A stretch of 64,000 nt of DNA from an uncultured Paracoccaceae bacterium (GTDB lineage: Bacteria > Pseudomonadota > Alphaproteobacteria > Rhodobacterales > Rhodobacteraceae), in assembly GCA_947497065.1 (NCBI GenBank), contig CANMEQ010000006.1:124001-188000 (forward strand), given 5' to 3'. Within the stretch, counting starts at the first letter, position 1, and every line of letters begins with the position of its first letter. Positions 1-8,690 of this stretch are shown here, in pieces. Made by a program: the position numbers and the translations under genes. The notes under the pieces are model-generated. The model was not told where the DNA came from, did no database searches, and worked only from the letters and a program-made list of their open reading frames with translations.

Positions 1-2
1 CG

Positions 3-50
3 CTGACGCCACAGCAGGTACGTGAAATCCTTTCGCAATCGACCCGTTAA
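3..50 (+). CDS. 3' end of an unidentified gene (partial)
   Basis: The first 50 bases are open in one forward frame and end in TAA at 48-50, giving the tail LTPQQVREILSQSTR. This looks like the last helix of a protein whose body lies before the window. It is too short to name. The stop codon falls inside a weak five-base-pair hairpin (CCGTT-AAAA-AACGG, 44-57). The next gene is on the opposite strand, so the two genes converge. Confidence 0.4.
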   Translation: MTPQQVREILSQSTR

Positions 51-67
51 AAAACGGTGTCTAACGC

Positions 68-274
68 TTAGCCGGCTTTCAGATTGCCGGCCATTTTTCG
101 ACCATCGCGACCTTCGATAAGATCAAATTCGATGGGCTGATCGTCGGCCAAACCTGTCATGCCAGATTGTTCAACGGCTGAGACGTGAACAAAAATATCT
201 GAACCTCCGTCTTCAGGCGCAATGAAGCCATAGCCTTTTGTGGTGTTGAACCATTTTACGGTGCCCTTTGGCAT
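68..274 (-). CDS. cspA: Cold-shock domain protein (CspA family)
   Basis: A 68-residue protein that is one cold-shock (OB-fold) domain. Both RNA-binding motifs are visible: KGYGFI (RNP1, about residues 13-18) and DIFVHV (RNP2, about residues 26-31). Proteins of this family bind single-stranded RNA or DNA and melt secondary structure in mRNA. The length is typical. The ATG at 274 is preceded by AAGGAG about seven bases upstream, which fixes the start. It is a single gene, divergent from the ArsC-like gene at 443. Roseobacters usually carry several paralogues, so the exact member (cspA, cspC or other) is not decided. Confidence 0.93.
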   Translation of the reverse strand: MPKGTVKWFNTTKGYGFIAPEDGGSDIFVHVSAVEQSGMTGLADDQPIEFDLIEGRDGRKMAGNLKAG

Positions 275-442
275 GATCAGTCTCCTTCACTTGATATTTT
301 ACCGCACCGATGCCAGATGATTTTAGGTACGGGTCTTGCTGTAGTTAACGTTAGGGCGCGTGACAAAAAGGCAAATTAGAAAAGTGCGATTTTGCGTGAT
401 GTCAGAAAAATATACGCGCGGTTGCTTAATTTGGGGGCGGAA

Positions 443-766
443 TTGAGATTTTTTGGATTAAAAACATGCGACACATGTCGAAAGGCGCTTAAATCATTGG
501 CGGGCTCCGATGTTGAGGTCATTGATGTGCGCGCCGATGGGATATCTGACGCAGACCGTTCTGCGATTATTGCAGCCTTTGGTGACAAAGCGATGAACAC
601 GCGGTCGACAACCTGGCGGGCCCTGTCTGAGGACGAGCGGGCGGCGGGGGCGGATGCGCTGATTGCAGCCCATCCGACGTTGATGAAACGACCGGTGATT
701 GAGAAAGAGGGTGTCTGGTATCAAGGCTGGACGCCGGATGTGAAACGCGCCTTGGGGGTAGAATAA
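443..766 (+). CDS. ArsC/Spx-family (YffB-like) thioredoxin-fold protein
   Basis: A 107-residue protein of the ArsC/Spx/YffB family. It opens with a beta strand and the active-site loop CDTC (a CxxC, unlike the single-Cys CX5R of classical arsenate reductase), followed by DADRSAIIAAF and the family phrase LMKRPVIEKEG. The favoured start is TTG at 443 because GGGGGCGG lies five bases upstream and the protein then begins directly with the RFFGLKTC strand; a longer frame from TTG 392 adds 17 unlikely residues. The stop TAA overlaps the next ATG (TAATG), implying translational coupling. The substrate is unknown; a glutathione-dependent reductase-like role is inference. Confidence 0.8.
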   Translation: MRFFGLKTCDTCRKALKSLAGSDVEVIDVRADGISDADRSAIIAAFGDKAMNTRSTTWRALSEDERAAGADALIAAHPTLMKRPVIEKEGVWYQGWTPDVKRALGVE

Positions 767-1128
767 TGCGAAATGCAGCGGGTGTTTTGGGGCTGATTGC
801 CGGTGTGATGGGGATTTTCGTGGGGCTGTTCGGCTACGGGATGGTGGAACTGTCGAACCGTGTGCCCGATGCGGACTTTAGTCTGTTCGAAAATCCGGCG
901 TTTGTGCAATTTGCCAGCTTTTTCGCGCCACTTTTGTGCATTGCGGGGGGCGCTATGGCGCGGTCACGTGCGTTGTGGGGCGGGATTGCATTGCTGCTGG
1001 GGGCGGCCACGTTTTATGCCGCCTTCGGGTTCAACGTGGGCACGATGTTCCCGATCGGGTTTGCAGGTCTAGGCGGCCTGCTTGCCATTGCAGCAGGCCG
1101 CCCAGATGAAGAGATCTCACATTTTTGA
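766..1128 (+). CDS. Small integral membrane protein, unknown function
   Basis: A 120-residue hydrophobic protein not assigned to a named family. Three to four membrane segments are visible: about residues 5-26, 47-64, 69-84 and 90-108. The loop between the first two is polar and acidic (NRVPDADFSLFENP). It starts one base inside the stop of the ArsC-like gene, so the pair form a two-gene operon. Its 3' end overlaps the convergent DoxX-family gene by 12 bases. Nothing in the sequence points to a substrate. Confidence 0.6.
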   Translation: MRNAAGVLGLIAGVMGIFVGLFGYGMVELSNRVPDADFSLFENPAFVQFASFFAPLLCIAGGAMARSRALWGGIALLLGAATFYAAFGFNVGTMFPIGFAGLGGLLAIAAGRPDEEISHF

Positions 1129-1659
1129 GGCGCGGGTTTTGAGGATGCGGTCCACGGAGAGTGGGCCTGCGCCTTTCAAAACCAGTGTCAACAGAACGAA
1201 CACCCAGAAGGCGCGCTGATCGAGGATTGCGCCGTCTGGTAAACCGTCGAACCACTTGCCCAGTGTTTCGATGTGGGCGATGCCGCCGTGGCCGTAGAGG
1301 TCGGTCAGGGATTGCACGACGACGAAGCCGATCATGCCCAAGGCGGCGAGGCGTGTGAACAGGCCAATCACCAGCAGGAGTGGCAGGATGTATTCCGCCA
1401 ATGTGCCGCTGACGACGACGGCCCAGTGGAACAGGCCCAATTGGCTGGCGTCATAGCCTGCGGCTTCCATGGCTTTGGGGAAGATTTGCGCATAGCCGCC
1501 CAAGCTGGGCGAGAAGGGCGTGCCATCCCATTTGGTGCCCGCTGAATTCCAGAAGTAAAACAGCAAGGTTGCCGCGAAAATGAACCGGGCCAAGGTGGGC
1601 AGGATCGTATCGGCAGAGGCGTTCAGCGAACGGGTGAGGCGGTCGTAAAGTGCGATCAT
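1117..1659 (-). CDS. bufD: DoxX-family membrane protein of a bufferin operon (BufD-like)
   Basis: A 180-residue DoxX-family protein with four membrane segments (about residues 20-36, 74-96, 100-125 and 142-163). It is the last gene of the minus-strand bufA-B-C-D set, 11 bases after the DUF2063 gene. DoxX homologues close the bufferin operons described in Caulobacter, where the membrane protein's own role is not settled. A thiol or redox role is often suggested for the family, but no cysteine motif is visible here. The symbol is given by operon position and family; the membership is clear, the function is inferred. Confidence 0.8.
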   Translation of the reverse strand: MIALYDRLTRSLNASADTILPTLARFIFAATLLFYFWNSAGTKWDGTPFSPSLGGYAQIFPKAMEAAGYDASQLGLFHWAVVVSGTLAEYILPLLLVIGLFTRLAALGMIGFVVVQSLTDLYGHGGIAHIETLGKWFDGLPDGAILDQRAFWVFVLLTLVLKGAGPLSVDRILKTRASKM

Positions 1660-1670
1660 AGGTTTGTCTT

Positions 1671-2417
1671 TCAGGTCTTGAGTGAAATAATGGCGTGACG
1701 CCCGAGTAGAATGCCCAGCAATGGCCCAATGTCAAAGCCAGCGCCGCCGTGGCGCAGGGCCTCGCCGAGGGAGGCGCCTTCGCAAAGGGCGGTGCAGACA
1801 GCGGATTGGGCGGGGGTGAGCGGGTCGACGATAGGGTCGAATTCGGGCCGTGTGACCAGCGCAGGCTGCGCGGTTTGTGCGATTTCGCTGCTTGATGTGT
1901 CGCCATTAGTATTCGCCGCCCAAATGCTGTGAAGCGGGTATTGGGAAGTGACGAGGCGCACGGCGGGTGCGAATGTGAAGGTGACATGGGGCAGGCTGTC
2001 GGGGGCGAGTTGACCGAGCGCATCGGGGGCTACAGGTGTGGCATCAGCCGCGTGATAGCTGTGCCGAATGGCCAGTTCCAAACGAGCGACATCTGCGAGA
2101 TAGGGGACCGATTGCGCAGGTGCGAACCCCGCGAGGAAGTCGGGCATGTCGTCGCCGTAAAACATCATGAGCGGCGATTTTGGCGGATGCGCGCGGAGGT
2201 AAACGCCCGCCATGGCACGGAAAAAATCATCGCCGACCAGTTTGTGGACAACGGGAAAGGCTGTTTCGAGCGCGTCCGTCAGGCTGACGGCCACGTTGTT
2301 GCGGTAGACATCAAACCGTTTGGTGGCCTGTTCGCCGCCGGGATTGTTCAGGCCCGTTGGGGGCGGTGCGGCGGGGTCGAGCAGGGCCTTTCGAAACGCG
2401 GTTTGGGTGGTGATCAT
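1671..2417 (-). CDS. bufC: DUF2063 protein, putative partner of the MNIO enzyme (BufC-like)
   Basis: A 248-residue soluble protein of the DUF2063 (HvfC/BufC) family. The N-terminal half has the family phrase [20 protein letters not shown] (a helical DNA-binding-like fold in structural descriptions of the family), and [18 protein letters not shown] follows. In RiPP systems with DUF692 enzymes this partner binds the precursor or the enzyme and is needed for modification. The start is the ATG at 2417, which overlaps the stop of the upstream bufB gene (ATGA), a typical coupled pair. A longer in-frame extension to 2555 lies entirely within bufB coding sequence and is rejected. A winged-helix-like C-terminal part (about residues 195-248) is hydrophobic and helical. 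Confidence 0.85.
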
Positions 2418-3265
2418 GCGGTCACCATGGCCAGCGCGGCATCGGCGCGTTTGGTTTCTTCGGCGAGGACGGGCCAGTCGGGCACGTCGGTGTCCCATTC
2501 GATGAGAAGGGGGCGGGGGCCGGATTTTGCCAAGGTGTAATCTAAAAGCGCCCAAACGGGATCGACGACTTCGCGGCCATGGCTGTCGATCAACAGAGGC
2601 GCGCCGTGTTCGTCTTCGTCCTCATCGTGGCCGCCGAGGTGGATTTCGCCTACGTGATCAAGGGGATAGGCGTCGATGTAGCCTTGGGGGGAATAGCCGA
2701 GGTTCGTGGCGCTGACGAAGACATTGTTGACGTCGAGCAGCAGGCCGCAGCCGGTGCGGGCCACGATTTCAGCCAGAAAATCGGTTTCGGACATGTCGGA
2801 TTCGGCGAAGGCCAGATAGCTGGAGGGGTTTTCCAACAGCATTTGGCGGCCCAACGTGGATTGGACCTGATCGATATGGTCAGCGACCCGTTTGACGGTC
2901 GCGGCCGTGTAGGGCAGGGGCAACAGGTCGTTCAGGAAGGCACTGTCGTGAGAGGACCAGGCCAGATGTTCGGAAAAGCTGGCAGGTTGAAGCCAGTCAC
3001 ATAAGGTTTTCAGCCGCGCGAGGTGATCCGCGTCGAGGGGGCCTTCGCCACCGATGCTGAGGCCTACGCCGTGGACGGAGAAAGGAAAGCGTTCGGAGAG
3101 GTGGCGCAGTTGCGCGAGGGGGCGGCCGCCCATCCCCATGTAGTTTTCAGCGTGGATTTCCAGCCAGCCCACAGGGCCTGCGTCTGCCATAATATCGTTG
3201 AAATGCTGAGCCTTGTAGCCAACACCCGGCGCGTGGGGCAATTGGGGGGAGGTTGCATCAAACAT
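2414..3265 (-). CDS. bufB: DUF692 multinuclear non-haem iron oxidative enzyme (MNIO; BufB-like)
   Basis: A 283-residue DUF692 protein, the family of MbnB, TglH and BufB, which are TIM-barrel enzymes that use two or three iron ions and oxygen to modify cysteines of a precursor peptide. Candidate metal ligands are in place: His65 (VHGVGLS), Glu99/His100 (SEHLAWS), Glu145 (LLENPSSY), Asp178 and Asn180 (LLLDVNNV), His209 (EIHLGGHD), Asp228/His229 (DSHG) and Glu256 (LIEWDTD). An acidic insert EDEDEH follows the HLGGH motif. AAGGAG sits eight bases before the ATG. The gene is separated from bufA by a 10-bp perfect hairpin and is coupled to bufC by ATGA. The natural substrate is inferred to be the DUF2282 protein just upstream. 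Confidence 0.92.
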
Positions 3266-3289
3266 ATACGGCGCTCCTTAAAACTGCGT

Positions 3290-3315
3290 GCGCCCACCCT
3301 AACATGGGTGGGCGC
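3290..3315 (-). promoter_or_regulatory. Perfect hairpin between bufA1 and bufB (attenuator or mRNA stabiliser)
   Basis: A 10-bp uninterrupted GC-rich stem (GCGCCCACCC with GGGTGGGCGC) closes a six-base loop in the 71-base gap between bufA1 and bufB. No uridine run follows directly; the next bases lead into the bufB ribosome-binding site. The position fits partial termination or protection of the 3' end of the bufA1 message, which would give more precursor than enzyme. Confidence 0.6.
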
Positions 3316-3336
3316 GAAAGTCGTGTCGTATTCAGC

Positions 3337-3639
3337 TTATGCTGGGATGTCGCGGTCGAGCTCTTCGAGGGAGCCCATACGCTCTACGCCATCAGCAGCG
3401 TCTGTGATTGTAGTTGTTTCGCATGTGCCTGCTGGCACCAATGTCCAAGCGTTACCCTGGTAATCAACTGTGGATGTGCCTGCACATGTTGTGCCTGGGC
3501 CAGCTGCACAGTCGTTTTCGCCAGCCAGTGAAACACCGAAACATTTTTCGTTTGCTTGTGCGTGGGCTGTTGTGGACAGGCCAGCGATGGCTGTTGCTAC
3601 GGAAGCGGCGAGAGCGAGTGTTGTTGTTGTCTTAGACAT
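3337..3639 (-). CDS. bufA1: Bufferin precursor, DUF2282 family (RiPP, copper-binding)
   Basis: A 100-residue secreted protein of the DUF2282 family. Residues 1-27 form a Sec signal peptide ending AHA. The mature part has four cysteines, Cys33, Cys44, Cys52 and Cys73, in the family setting [20 protein letters not shown] and VPAGTC. In the Caulobacter bufferins the inner cysteines become thiooxazoles through a DUF692 enzyme and the product binds copper in the periplasm; that is known for the family, not shown here. The acidic tail [12 protein letters not shown] is a candidate enzyme-recognition segment. AGGA lies about nine bases before the ATG. It is the first gene of bufA-B-C-D. The upstream DNA is AT-rich around 3690-3730, but no convincing promoter or sigma-factor site could be placed. 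Confidence 0.9.
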
Positions 3640-3790
3640 ACTACTAATTCCTATGTGTCAGTTGCAGAGTTTTTGCGCCCTGTTCGGCACTGAAATAACT
3701 ATAAACCGGTCTTTTGTTAATTATCTACTCACGCTGACGTGTCTCGCGCGGGCGTTATGATCTGTCAGGGTAGGCTTGACAAAATCCCCA

Positions 3791-3827
3791 ATAAAATAAG
3801 GCCCGCCCGCCAAGGGCAGCCGGGCCT
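3791..3827 (-). terminator. Intrinsic terminator of thrS
   Basis: On the minus strand, GGCCCG and CGGGCC enclose a smaller GC-rich helix and are followed by TTATTTTATT. It lies 25-60 bases after the thrS stop and upstream of bufA1, so it separates the two transcription units. Confidence 0.75.
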
Positions 3828-3851
3828 GTTACACTGCTGCAGTGCAGAATG

Positions 3852-5798
3852 TTACAGAAGATCGGGAGGGGTGGTCGATTTTCCAAGCTCTGCGACGATC
3901 TCTGTCAGAGATGTTACAGAGGTTTTCTTTTCGCCCAAGCGCCGTACGGAGACGGTTTTTTCTTCGACCTCGCGGGCACCACAGGCGAGAATCACGGGGA
4001 CTTTGCCCAGAGAGTGCTCGCGGACCTTGTAGTTGATCTTCTCATTGCGGATGTCCGCCTCTGCGCGCACGCCCACGGCTTTGAGGGCTGCGACGACCTC
4101 GTGGACGTAGTCATCTGCGTCAGAGATGATGGAGGCGACGACGACCTGACGGGGCGCCAGCCAGAACGGCAGTTTGCCGGCGTGTTCTTCGATGAGAATA
4201 CCGATGAAACGCTCAAAAGAGCCCAATGTCGCGCGGTGCAACATGACGGGGCGGTGTTTTTCACCGTCCGCGCCGATGTATGTGGCGTCGAGGCGTTCGG
4301 GCAGGTTGCTGTCGACCTGCAAGGTGCCGCATTGCCAGTCGCGGCCGATCGCGTCTGTCAGGGTGAATTCCAGTTTCGGGCCGTAGAATGCGCCTTCGCC
4401 TTCGAGGATCTCAAAGTCGTGGCCTGCTGCGTTACAGGCATCGCCCAAGGCTTTTTCCATCTGGTCCCAAACCGCGTCAGAGCCGATGCGTTTTTCGGGG
4501 CGGGTGGAGAGTTTGATGGTCCAGTTGTGGAAGCCCAAATCTGCATAGACGGTCGAGAGGAAGTCGATGAAGATTTTGGTTTCTTCGGTGATCTGGTCTT
4601 CGGTGCAGAAGATGTGGCCATCGTCTTGGGTGAAGCCACGCACGCGCATGATGCCGTGCAGTGCGCCGGAGGGTTCGTAGCGGTTGCACGAGCCGAATTC
4701 GGCCATGCGCAACGGCAAATCGCGGTAGGATTTCAGACCTTGGTTGAACACCTGCACGTGGCATGGGCAGTTCATCGGCTTCAGCGCGTTAACCGCTTTT
4801 TCGCGGGCGTGCTCTTCGTCGACTTCGACGATGAACATGTTTTCTTGGTATTTGTCCCAGTGGCCTGAGGCTTCCCAGAGTTTGCGGTCAACGACCTGTG
4901 GTGTGTTCACTTCCACGTAGCCGCCTGCGTCTTGTTTGCGGCGCATGTAGTCTTGCAATGTGGTGTAGACGCGCCAGCCGTTGGGGTGCCAGAAGACCTG
5001 ACCGGGGGCCTCTTCTTGCATGTGGAAGAGATCCATTTCGCGACCCAGTTTGCGGTGGTCACGCTTTTCGGCTTCCTCAAGGAAGTTCATGTAATCGCGC
5101 AGCTTTTCCTTGTTTTGGAAGGCCACGCCGTAGATGCGTTGCAACATCTGGCGGTCGCTGTCGCCGCGCCAGTAGGCGCCTGCGATGGACATGAGTTTCC
5201 AGCTGTCACCGGGCACTTGGCCGGTGTTTTGCAAGTGCGGGCCACGGCACAGATCCTGCCAGTCGCCGTGCCAATACATGCGCAGGTCTTCGTTGCCCGG
5301 AATGCTTTCGATCAGCTCAACCTTATAGGGTTCGCCGCGGTCTTTGTAGTATTGGATCGCGGTGTCGCGTTCCCAGACTTCGGTGCGGACCTCGTCGCGT
5401 TTGTTGATGATTTCTTTCATCTTTTTCTCGATCACGCCCAGATCTTCGGGGGTGAACGGTTCTTTGCGATCAAAATCGTAGTACCAGCCGTTGTTGATCA
5501 CTGGGCCGATGGTCACTTGGGTGTCGGGCCAGATTTCCTGCACGGCGCGGGCCATGATGTGGGCCAGATCGTGCCGGATCAATTCCAGCGCCGGTTCTTC
5601 GTCCTTCATGGTGTTGATGGCGATTTGGGCGTCTTCGGTGATGGGCCATTGCAGGTCGTAGTGGGCGCCGTTGACGGTGGCCGAGATGGCCTTTTTGGCC
5701 AGAGATGTGGCAATGGAGGCGGCGACTTCGGCGGCGGTGATGCCGGCCTCGAATTCGCGGGAATTGCCATCAGGGAAAGTCAGGGAGATTTGGGCCAT
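3852..5798 (-). CDS. thrS: Threonyl-tRNA synthetase
   Basis: A 648-residue class II aminoacyl-tRNA synthetase that charges tRNA-Thr with threonine in the cytoplasm. Order of domains: TGS domain (about 1-61), the second additional domain with the editing motif RHDLAH (His76, His80), then the catalytic core with motif 2 [12 protein letters not shown] and motif 3 in the segment [15 protein letters not shown], and a C-terminal anticodon-binding domain (about 540-640). Full length for the family. It is a single gene with its own terminator, divergent from the tag-like gene; the shared upstream region contains three TACA-N-TGTA palindromes. Confidence 0.98.
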
Positions 5799-5917
5799 GT
5801 GGTCGGCTCCTCGTCGTTTTGGCGCCTACAAAGCGCCCGGTTGCGGGTTATGTGTTTTGGCCTTTTGACCGATGGTAAAACCTGCGTCAAGCCCAGCTTA
5901 TCCTCGTATGATTTGCG

Positions 5918-5955
5918 TACACAGGCTGTACACATGATGTATGTACAGATGTGTA
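5918..5955. promoter_or_regulatory. Three successive TACA-N4/5-TGTA palindromes (operator-like)
   Basis: Inverted repeats TACA-N5-TGTA at 5918-5930 and 5929-5941, and TACA-N4-TGTA at 5944-5955, lie back to back just before the ribosome-binding site of the tag-like gene (GGGAGAG, about 5961) and about 120 bases before thrS. Four GTAC cores occur within 40 bases at spacings of 11, 15 and 10, that is near helical phasing for two of them. This suits a repressor array on the tag side. The regulator is unknown. Confidence 0.5.
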
Positions 5956-5973
5956 CCGCGCGGGAGAGAAACG

Positions 5974-6642
5974 ATGCATCATTTTGACGATATTCTGGCC
6001 ATTGCGGCCAAACGACGAGGCGGTGAGGCGCAGGTTTGGGAGGGGATCGTGCCGCCCAAATCTCGCGATGAGATTGCCGCGATTTCGGACGATGCGTTTT
6101 TGGCTGTTTTCGCCGAAGGTATTTTTCAGACCGGGTTGGCCTGGACCGTGGTGCAAAACAAATGGCCCGGCATTGTCGAGGCGTTTGGCGGATTTGAGGT
6201 GGGGCGGGTCGCGATGATGTCGCCCGAGTGGTTTGATGATTTGGTGGGCGACACGCGGGTTATTCGCAGTGGGGCCAAAATTCGCGCCATTCAAGAGAAT
6301 GCGGTGATGATCCAAGAGGCCGCGCAGGGCGCCGGGTTTGGCCAATTTGTAGCCGACTGGCCGCGCGATGATTTTGCGGGCCTGATGCTGTGGTTGAAGA
6401 AGAACGGGTCGCGTTTGGGCGGATCGGTGGGGGCCTACGGTTTGCGGCGCTTGGGCGTGGACAGTTTTATTTTGTCGCGCGATGTGGTGGCGCGGCTGGT
6501 GGCCGAGGGGGTGATCGACAAAGCGCCGACATCGCAGCGGGCCTTGGGGCAGGTGCAGGCGGCATTCAACACTTGGGTCGCGCAATCGGGGCGCAGCCTG
6601 ACCGAAGTGAGCCGCGTGCTGGCCTATAGTATCGACGGCTGA
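5974..6642 (+). CDS. DNA-3-methyladenine glycosylase I family protein (Tag-like)
   Basis: A 222-residue protein of the Tag/HhH-GPD superfamily, base-excision repair glycosylases that remove alkylated purines. Visible family features are FAEGIFQTGLAWTVVQNKWPGI, in place of the Tag phrase around the lesion pocket, then FDDLVGDTRVIRSGAKIRAIQENA, matching the helical core of the fold. The four zinc-binding residues of classical Tag (Cys and His at the two ends) are not evident, so this is a divergent Tag-like branch common in Rhodobacterales. The ATG at 5974 has GGGAGAG at 5962-5968. The operator-like palindromes upstream hint at regulated expression. Confidence 0.75.
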   Translation: MHHFDDILAIAAKRRGGEAQVWEGIVPPKSRDEIAAISDDAFLAVFAEGIFQTGLAWTVVQNKWPGIVEAFGGFEVGRVAMMSPEWFDDLVGDTRVIRSGAKIRAIQENAVMIQEAAQGAGFGQFVADWPRDDFAGLMLWLKKNGSRLGGSVGAYGLRRLGVDSFILSRDVVARLVAEGVIDKAPTSQRALGQVQAAFNTWVAQSGRSLTEVSRVLAYSIDG

Positions 6643-6742
6643 GCTGGCTGGAGGGAGCGTCGTTGTTGGCGGCGTCGCGATTTGAAAACGGCGCGGGGGC
6701 GCTATGTCATGTCAAATCACTGGAGAGAATGGTGGATTTGTC

Positions 6743-7960
6743 ATGGCGTCGAACATTTTGAAACTGTTGAAATCTGGCTCTGAAGAGGGCGAGGCCGCGA
6801 ATATCAGGCGGCATGTGACGGCGTTGAGTTGCAGCAAATCGGCCGATGGATTGATCAGCCCCAAATTGGTTTTGAGCTGGTTGCTGAGCAATCTTGGGGC
6901 CAGCAGTTTTTGGATCGGGGCGCTGGTGCCGGTGCGAGAGGCGGGAGCGTTGTTGCCGCAATTGTTCACCGCGCCGAAGATCAAGAGCATGGCACGGCGC
7001 AAGTGGGCCTGGGCTGTTGGGTCGTTCGGGCAGGGCGCCTGCGTGTTGGGCATGGTTTTGGTGGCGTTGCTGTTTGAGGACAATGTTGCCGGGGTTTTGA
7101 TTGTGGCGCTGCTGGGCATTCTGGCGCTGTTTCGGTCGATTTGTTCGGTGAGCTACAAAGATGTGCTGGGCAAGACGGTGAAGAAGACCCACCGCGGGCA
7201 GACAACGGGGGCGGCGAATACCGTGTCGTCGGTCGTGGTGGTGATTTTTGCAGGAATTTTGATCATCGGGCCGGATGAGAAGTTTGCGCTGGTGATTGGG
7301 GCGCTGGGATTGGCGGTGGTGCTTTGGGCCTTGGCGGCGATGTTTATGAGCCGGATGGAGGAAGAGGCCTCGGACGTGGGCGAGCGCGAAGCGATCTCTG
7401 CGCCGCTGTCTTTGTTGTGGGAAAACAAGCAGTTGCGGTTGTTTGTGATCGCGCGGGCCTTGCTGGTGGGGACGGCGTTGGCGCCGCCCTACATGGTGAT
7501 TTTGGCGGGGGATGAGGGGTTTTTCTCGCAATTGGGGGCGCTGGTTTTGGCGTCGTCCTTGGGGTCTTTGGTGTCGGCCTATGTGTGGGGCTGGTTGGCG
7601 GATCGTTCTTCGCGGCAGGTGTTGATTTGGTCGGGCGTGGCCGGGGCCGTGTCGCTGGTGTTGGCGCTGATCATTGGCGAAGGCGGCGGCATGGCGGTGG
7701 CGTTGTTTGCGGTGGTGGTGGCCTATCACGGGGTGCGGCAGGGCCGGTCGACGTATTTGGTGGATATGGCGGGCGAGGATGATCGCGCGACGTTTACCGC
7801 GATTTCCAACACGGTGATCGGCGTGTTCCTGCTGGTTGTGGGGGGGATCGCAGCGGGGCTGTCTTCTGTGTCGGTTTATCTTGTCATTGGGGTGTTTGCT
7901 GTGATGTGTCTGGCGGGGGGCGCGGTTGCCCTGAAGTTAGACGAGGTTGAAAATGGCTGA
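6743..7960 (+). CDS. MFS transporter
   Basis: A 405-residue integral membrane protein with about twelve hydrophobic segments, arranged 6+6 with a cytoplasmic loop near residues 185-205 (RMEEEASDVGEREA), consistent with the major facilitator superfamily. The second half carries the loop WGWLADRSSRQVL, a match to the MFS A-motif position. The substrate is not predictable. Start choice: ATG 6743 has GGTGGA six bases upstream; an earlier in-frame start at 6704 has a poorer site. It overlaps the following hydrolase gene by eight bases, so the two are one operon. Confidence 0.8.
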   Translation: MASNILKLLKSGSEEGEAANIRRHVTALSCSKSADGLISPKLVLSWLLSNLGASSFWIGALVPVREAGALLPQLFTAPKIKSMARRKWAWAVGSFGQGACVLGMVLVALLFEDNVAGVLIVALLGILALFRSICSVSYKDVLGKTVKKTHRGQTTGAANTVSSVVVVIFAGILIIGPDEKFALVIGALGLAVVLWALAAMFMSRMEEEASDVGEREAISAPLSLLWENKQLRLFVIARALLVGTALAPPYMVILAGDEGFFSQLGALVLASSLGSLVSAYVWGWLADRSSRQVLIWSGVAGAVSLVLALIIGEGGGMAVALFAVVVAYHGVRQGRSTYLVDMAGEDDRATFTAISNTVIGVFLLVVGGIAAGLSSVSVYLVIGVFAVMCLAGGAVALKLDEVENG

Positions 7961-8690
7961 CACGATCACAACACCACAGGGCCGGACATTGGCCTATCAT
8001 CGGACGCAAGGTGCAGGGCCGACGGTGGTGTTTCTGGGCGGTTTTAAATCGGACATGGAGGGGTCGAAGGCGACCTATCTGGAGGCGTGGGCGCAGCGCA
8101 CGGGGCGCGCGTTTTTGCGGTTTGATTATTCGGGGCATGGGCAGAGCAGTGAGGCGTTTGAGGACGGCTGCATTGGTGATTGGTTTGAAGATGCCTGCGC
8201 GATGCTGGAGATGATTGATGGGCCGCTGGTGTTGGTGGGCTCGTCCATGGGGGGATGGATTTCGTTGCAGGTGGCCCGCGCGATGCCCGAACGGGTTGTC
8301 GGGCTGGTGGGCATTGCGGCGGCCCCTGATTTTACCGAGGACGGGTTTTGGGCCAGTTTTGATGAGGTGATGCGTGCCAAGTTGATGCGGGAGGGGCGTG
8401 TGGCGCTGCCGTCGGAGTATGGCGAGCCGTATATTATCACGAAACGACTGATCGAGGAGGGGCGCGACCGGTTGGTGCTGCGCACGCCTTTGGATTTGCC
8501 GTTTCCCGTGCGGTTTTTGCAAGGCACGAAAGATACATCCGTGACGACGCAGACGGCGCTGCGGTTGCTGGATCATGCGACGAGCCCCGATATGCGGCTG
8601 ACCTTGGTGGATGGGGCGGATCATTCGTTTTCCAGCGAGACGTGTTTGCCCCAGATCGTAGATGCGATTGTGGATGTTTGGGGCGGGTGA
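7953..8690 (+). CDS. Alpha/beta hydrolase (ABHD10-like)
   Basis: A 245-residue alpha/beta hydrolase. The nucleophile elbow is GSSMGG with Ser98; the oxyanion-side strand is VVFLGGFKSDMEGSKA, typical of the bacterial proteins related to mammalian ABHD10 thioesterase/esterase. A catalytic His is present near the C-terminus (DGADHSFSS), with the acid probably in the QGTKDTSV loop. The gene begins inside the 3' end of the MFS gene (eight-base overlap) and is followed by a 92-base gap. A TTG six bases earlier is also open but less likely. The substrate is unknown. Confidence 0.85.
   Translation: MADTITTPQGRTLAYHRTQGAGPTVVFLGGFKSDMEGSKATYLEAWAQRTGRAFLRFDYSGHGQSSEAFEDGCIGDWFEDACAMLEMIDGPLVLVGSSMGGWISLQVARAMPERVVGLVGIAAAPDFTEDGFWASFDEVMRAKLMREGRVALPSEYGEPYIITKRLIEEGRDRLVLRTPLDLPFPVRFLQGTKDTSVTTQTALRLLDHATSPDMRLTLVDGADHSFSSETCLPQIVDAIVDVWGG

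Follow-up and report, generated by a model that had tools for sequence, protein, structure and literature searches.

The 64,000-nucleotide window analysed here, from an uncultured Paracoccaceae bacterium (GCA_947497065.1, contig CANMEQ010000006.1, positions 124,001 to 188,000 of the forward strand), carries a Buf1 bufferin operon, bufA to bufD (Table 1). The operon is real and complete, and is a known bufferin system in a variant specific to a marine roseobacter lineage. Two features mark the variant: a C-terminal tail on the precursor found together with a long BufD, and a tandem-palindrome promoter box in place of sigmaF control; a hairpin after bufA is shared with loci linked to nrsF. What the analysis shows directly is the four genes with their families, a fold prediction for BufC, conservation, the box and the hairpin. 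With the chemistry and copper binding carried over from papers on relatives, we consider it very probable that this Buf1 operon forms thiooxazoles at cysteines 44 and 52 of the precursor, binds copper in the periplasm, is driven from an activator-dependent promoter and uses the hairpin to favour precursor transcripts.

All four products pass the Pfam cut-offs of their families: DUF2282 for BufA (E-value 9.8e-24; 83.5 bits against a cut-off of 22.4), MbnB_TglH_ChrH for BufB (3.2e-105), DUF2063 for BufC (9.3e-28, spanning residues 3–94 of its translated part) and DoxX for BufD (7.8e-08). BufB also passes the NCBIfam bufferin-maturase equivalog NF050167 (374.8, cut-off 310) and falls short of the NCBIfam MbnB model (53.8, cut-off 325); BufA matches none of the NCBIfam models. 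The gene order is that of the Caulobacter vibrioides Buf1 operon CC3254–CC3257, that is, DUF2282, DUF692/MNIO, DUF2063 and DoxX (PMC3511200). An earlier note on this DNA, made from its letters alone, had recognized a complete operon in the Caulobacter order, and Pfam, NCBIfam and a survey of related loci support it well. Its description of the genes as tightly packed holds downstream, where the bufB stop and bufC ATG overlap by 4 nt and 11 nt separate bufC from bufD, but not between bufA and bufB, which lie 71 nt apart with a hairpin of 10-bp stem between them.

The survey covers 181 loci, namely the window and its relatives; because some genomes occur twice (for example, L056 and L117), we used a non-redundant set of 114 loci under 85% BufB identity. 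All four buf genes are present at 174 of the 181 loci, and 173 of these keep the present order with every gene on the same strand (L250 has the four in a different order). DUF2282 and MNIO each match once in the genome of the window. DUF2282 occurs in 16/19 genomes of the genus, in 211/295 of an even draw from the family (MNIO family, 210/295) and in 135/385 of a draw from the class; given the high counts in genus and family, the operon is nothing unusual for this group, and the lack of co-conservation that would have spoken against it did not occur. Among named organisms, BufB has its closest relatives in Pseudooctadecabacter and Octadecabacter, and the operon itself adds one more case to a large family whose description is recent. 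Some loci depart from the common layout: two (L095 in G007, L096 in G204) carry a tandem pair of bufA ahead of a single bufB, the tail being present on each precursor, and the MNIO gene appears broken in two genomes that have a DUF2282 match, as two separate matches at L075 (G149) and by an internal stop at G100:C45:4536-5327.

Cysteines 33, 44, 52 and 73 of BufA are each 100% conserved in an alignment of the 75 non-redundant loci with long BufD. Across these loci, mean conservation is 3.57 bits per column in the cysteine core, 3.24 in the tail, 2.22 in the linker and 1.92 in the signal peptide, whose features by eye are Lys3, a hydrophobic stretch and AHA before Q28. A sequence search of solved structures with BufA gave none at 0.1. 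In Buf1, modification is reported to fall on the central cysteines, with a disulphide joining the outer two (PMC12452194). The oxidation of all four cysteines, as first proposed for this operon, thus goes beyond that source, which names the central cysteines only (44 and 52 here) and gives the outer pair to the disulphide; the proposed chemistry is probably right in outline, with two targets instead of four. Caulobacter Buf1 is reported to chelate Cu(I) and Cu(II) and to help growth in excess copper (PMC12452194), and the copper function suggested for the present operon is carried over from this family.

The candidate iron ligands of the DUF692 enzyme, picked out by the earlier note, are conserved: H65, H100, E145, D178, N181, H209, D227, H229, E256 and D258 of BufB are identical in 114/114 non-redundant relatives, and H213 is kept in 96.5%. 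In each of its halves, the AlphaFold2 model of BufC matches TglI and NGO1945, with 8hi7/8hci (TglHI) as best fold matches; MbnC is not among the matches listed, which does not exclude an MbnC match. By sequence, neither a search of solved structures with BufC (at 0.001) nor one with the MbnC model against BufC (E 0.001) gave a match.

Upstream of bufA, long-BufD loci not linked to nrsF have in common a consensus box followed by TAnnnT 37–38 bp after its second CACG. With three mismatches allowed, the box lies upstream of bufA at 50/72 such loci and at 0/42 loci of all other classes, counts made on the very loci that had yielded the box; elsewhere in the 1.1 million bases (both strands) of the 72 loci it matches four times, and 30 letter-permuted boxes have no match in those bases. 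TAnnnT at offset 37 or 38 is found 30 times over 49 aligned loci. The window's TATAGT is among five promoter-like sites in the region upstream of bufA, where 1.0 is expected. A search through the genus gives a fairer test, with a few loci in common with the consensus set: exactly one box occurs in each of the 16/16 genomes with DUF2282, 168–178 bp before the DUF2282 stretch, and none in the 3/3 genomes without it (completeness rated at 100, 79 and 88%), and the reversed pattern has no match in the genus genomes. A half-box pattern gives one exact match in the window's own genome, at bufA. Across the family the box is found at three mismatches in 153/295 genomes, by our own reading of the rows in 133/211 with DUF2282 and 20/84 without. 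Among the matches listed for genomes without DUF2282, all have three mismatches except one with two, and several repeat the same or a similar sequence. With the pattern reversed, matches are likewise obtained in some genomes of the family. In one genome (G063:C9:6219-6251) the box lies between bufA and bufB rather than before bufA.

In Caulobacter, bufferin operons are driven by sigmaF and held back by NrsF (PMC3511200). Control of that type was not found for the window operon: its genome gave no NrsF match (the Caulobacter control was positive) and the 260 bp before its bufA hold no sigmaF-like site, the tandem-palindrome box and −10 element standing there instead. NrsF is found in 45/295 family genomes (40 above the cut-off) and has no match in 250/295, so that the box offers a handle on how bufferins are switched without NrsF. 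A site resembling GTAAC-N-CGAA precedes bufA at 15/24 nrsF-linked loci (0.06 expected from block shuffles) and at 2/14 loci lacking both tail and nrsF. The palindrome unit CACG-N4/5-CGTGA also precedes bufA at 11/24 nrsF-linked loci (0.21 expected), ending 4–15 bp upstream of the sigmaF-like site in the six that have both; because the unit is present there too, one regulator may serve both classes. We read the box as a putative activator site near −45 and −60.

The spacer between bufA and bufB was examined at 113 loci (one nrsF-linked locus of the 114 is missing) for a perfect stem of at least 8 bp within 70 nt past the bufA stop. Such a hairpin is present at 61/72 long-BufD loci not linked to nrsF and at 3/18 of those remaining outside the nrsF-linked class; its sequence varies between loci. 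Random windows of the same loci have a stem in 30/342 cases, a loose control as they are mostly coding.

The sequence of events we propose would begin with synthesis of BufA with a Sec signal peptide that also serves as leader. In the cytoplasm, a complex of BufB, a diiron MNIO, and BufC, its DUF2063/RRE (RiPP recognition element) partner, would oxidize cysteines 44 and 52 to 5-thiooxazoles. Sec would then export the peptide, cysteines 33 and 73 would form a disulphide, and the thiooxazoles would bind excess copper in the periplasm, with BufD presumably seated in the inner membrane. An activator, rather than the sigmaF–NrsF pair of Caulobacter, would bind the box next to the −10 element of a dedicated promoter, and the hairpin after bufA would raise precursor over enzyme transcript. 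Chemistry, leader role and copper binding are transferred here from papers on relatives; an activator, and what the hairpin does, are our own inferences. For the leader, preliminary results make the bufferin signal peptide part of the recognition sequence (PMC12452194), and HvfA without its signal sequence is reported to be poorly modified (PMC13419390).

Several results weigh against this picture. In NCBIfam, BufC does not reach the cut-off for HvfC (43.1 against 142), nor BufD that for HvfX (30.2 against 80), both models being named after the oxazolin branch. The box counts within the survey are partly circular, as noted, and 22 of the 72 loci of the class are without a match at three mismatches, while 3/72 have a sigmaF-like site (0.27 expected). 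Clustering of recurrent neighbours around the 114 loci produced no clear regulator gene, a weak negative because two clusters are large mixes with shadow open reading frames. The hairpin, present at 19/23 nrsF-linked loci, is not special to the present class.

The C-terminal tail was put forward in the earlier note as the novelty of this precursor and as a candidate recognition segment. A GSLxxLxRDLP-like tail is present at 75/75 non-redundant long-DoxX loci, and it extends across the family and to some loci of other alphaproteobacterial families; the idea of a tail peculiar to this precursor was accordingly dropped. Counts use a widened pattern (the first missed L131) that fixes R96 and nearly D97, yet selected nothing in the 75-locus set because all long-BufD loci are tailed. 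Precursors without LxRDLP mostly terminate soon after GSL, and four others (L069, L079, L086 and L266) have additional residues within and after the tail.

BufD falls into two forms, with bimodal profile scores that reach no higher than 112 bits in one group and no lower than 171 in the other. By alignment, the long form has two additional loop segments, inserted between helices 1 and 2 and between helices 3 and 4, and the positive-inside pattern (topology by eye) would place these extended loops in the periplasm; a fold search of the PDB with BufD found nothing at an E-value of 0.001 or below, an uninformative result. Both labels could be assigned at 175 of the 181 loci (all but L065, L091, L126, L184, L244 and L265): 132 combine long BufD with a tail, 32 short BufD without a tail, 11 short BufD with a tail and none long BufD without a tail. 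The non-redundant counts are 75, 31, 8 and 0. A link of the tail to regulator type was also considered and rejected, nine nrsF-linked loci being tailed (six with short BufD, three with long). On a BufB tree of the 114 loci, built by a quick method (13/111 inner branches starred, and several long branches in the tree), the BufD long form changes six times and the tail nine times, and both are clustered. Only two independent tail/BufD pairs fall on starred branches; over random pairings the tail changes in the same direction in 1.7 of 2 and never in the opposite one, and with pairs chosen by tail the figure is 1.1 of 2. Significant co-evolution was therefore not shown, as two supported contrasts cannot reach significance, and docking of the tail on BufD is kept as a rival and not as a result.

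Three roles for the tail can be weighed on this evidence. In the role first suggested, BufC or BufB would bind the tail as a follower peptide that cysteine modification requires. This would suit a conservation close to that of the cysteine core and well above that of the linker, and PMC12710340 reports that no specific recognition motif was found for DUF2063-type RREs paired with DUF2282 precursors. We regard it as unlikely, given that the papers on relatives favour the Sec signal peptide for the part of leader (PMC12452194, PMC13419390) and that 31/114 non-redundant loci combine tail-less precursors with BufB and BufC. The tail might instead dock on the periplasmic loops of long BufD, so that the copper-loaded peptide is held at the inner membrane or passed on there. 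Long BufD is found solely with tailed precursors, 32 of 43 short-BufD loci are tail-less, and the inserts lie on the predicted side where the mature peptide is expected; the three tailed nrsF-linked long-BufD loci indicate that the tail follows BufD and not regulator type. Shared ancestry explains much of this, and with the tailed short-BufD loci also against it we think docking unlikely. A real possibility, if a little under even, is that the tail has no partner among the products of the operon and gives the mature peptide a structural or protective end, or else marks the lineage: the GSL part is common to 30 precursors without the remaining tail (by the first pattern, with L131 a miss), and tail and BufD form are each clustered on the tree, although G89, L91, R96 and D97 are invariant in the 75 loci, over many genera and several families, which is beyond what a drifting end would keep.

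Metals other than copper, or a general envelope stress, have also to be considered as the target of the operon. In Caulobacter, dichromate elicits a response from CC3255 as well as from other sigmaF targets, and CC3255 reacts to cadmium too (PMC3511200); further metals are discussed in PMC12452194. Set against the reported copper chelation by Buf1 and its benefit to growth in excess copper, this is very unlikely, and we retain copper binding by the thiooxazole-bearing peptide. Distinctly unlikely, too, is the combined proposal of a roseobacter-centred class in which tail and long-BufD loops form a membrane receptor or hand-over module for the copper-loaded peptide and the nrsF-less majority is switched by a regulator, in place of sigmaF–NrsF, for which this operon is the sole strong target. 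Our literature searches turned up nothing published on the tail described here, on the long form of DoxX or on the box. The restriction of the long form to tailed precursors, in the loci examined, gives a handle on the role of DoxX in bufferin operons.

Compared with Caulobacter, the DoxX protein is longer here (180 aa against 150 aa for CC3257; PMC3511200), and the Caulobacter precursor is reported at 93 aa. The oxazolin and captophorin operons HvfABCX and FonABC share the MNIO and a PME1 partner, hvf also a DoxX-like gene, and make a 5-thiooxazole on cysteine (PMC13097082, PMC13419390). Their precursors have EGKCG repeats, whereas the present one is a DUF2282 protein with four single cysteines and no EGKCG motif in its 100 residues. 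The methanobactin system MbnABC and the pearlin system TglAHI have the MNIO fold family and partner fold in common with this operon, but their precursors have no Sec signal and undergo other chemistry (PMC12452194).

Table 1. Positions of the bufferin operon and its associated elements within the window.
Feature	Position	Strand	Description	Basis
bufA	3337..3639	-	Buf1/DUF2282 precursor, 100 aa, Cys 33, 44, 52, 73	Open reading frame and Pfam
Signal peptide	3559..3639	-	N-terminal, Sec-type, residues 1–27, AHA before Q28	By eye
C-terminal tail	3340..3378	-	Residues 88–100 of BufA	Alignments
Stem-loop between bufA and bufB	3290..3315	-	10-bp stem, 6-nt loop	
bufB	2414..3265	-	MNIO (formerly DUF692) bufferin maturase, 283 aa	Pfam and NCBIfam
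bufC	1671..2417	-	DUF2063 plus RRE-like domain, PME-type 1 partner, 248 aa	Pfam and predicted fold
bufD	1117..1659	-	Long-form DoxX protein, 180 aa, two extended loops	Pfam and alignment
−10-like hexamer	3698..3703	-	TATAGT, 38 bp past start of second CACG half-site	
Tandem-palindrome promoter box	3725..3757	-	TNACG-N4-CGTGA-N2-CACG-N4-CGTGA-N-TGG, 33 bp, 2 mismatches here	Genus alignment, consensus
Terminator-like hairpin	3803..3819	-	3' of thrS, sets operon apart from thrS	

An Rfam search of window positions 1–8000 gave no match. Directly upstream of bufA lies thrS (3852–5798, minus strand), and in the genus alignment, inspected by eye, a thrS-like end and terminator precede the promoter in most relatives. 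Two plus-strand genes converge on bufD: an ArsC-family protein at 392–766 and, at 766–1128, a 120-aa membrane-type protein without a Pfam match, which a recurrent neighbour present at 41/114 loci resembles by eye.

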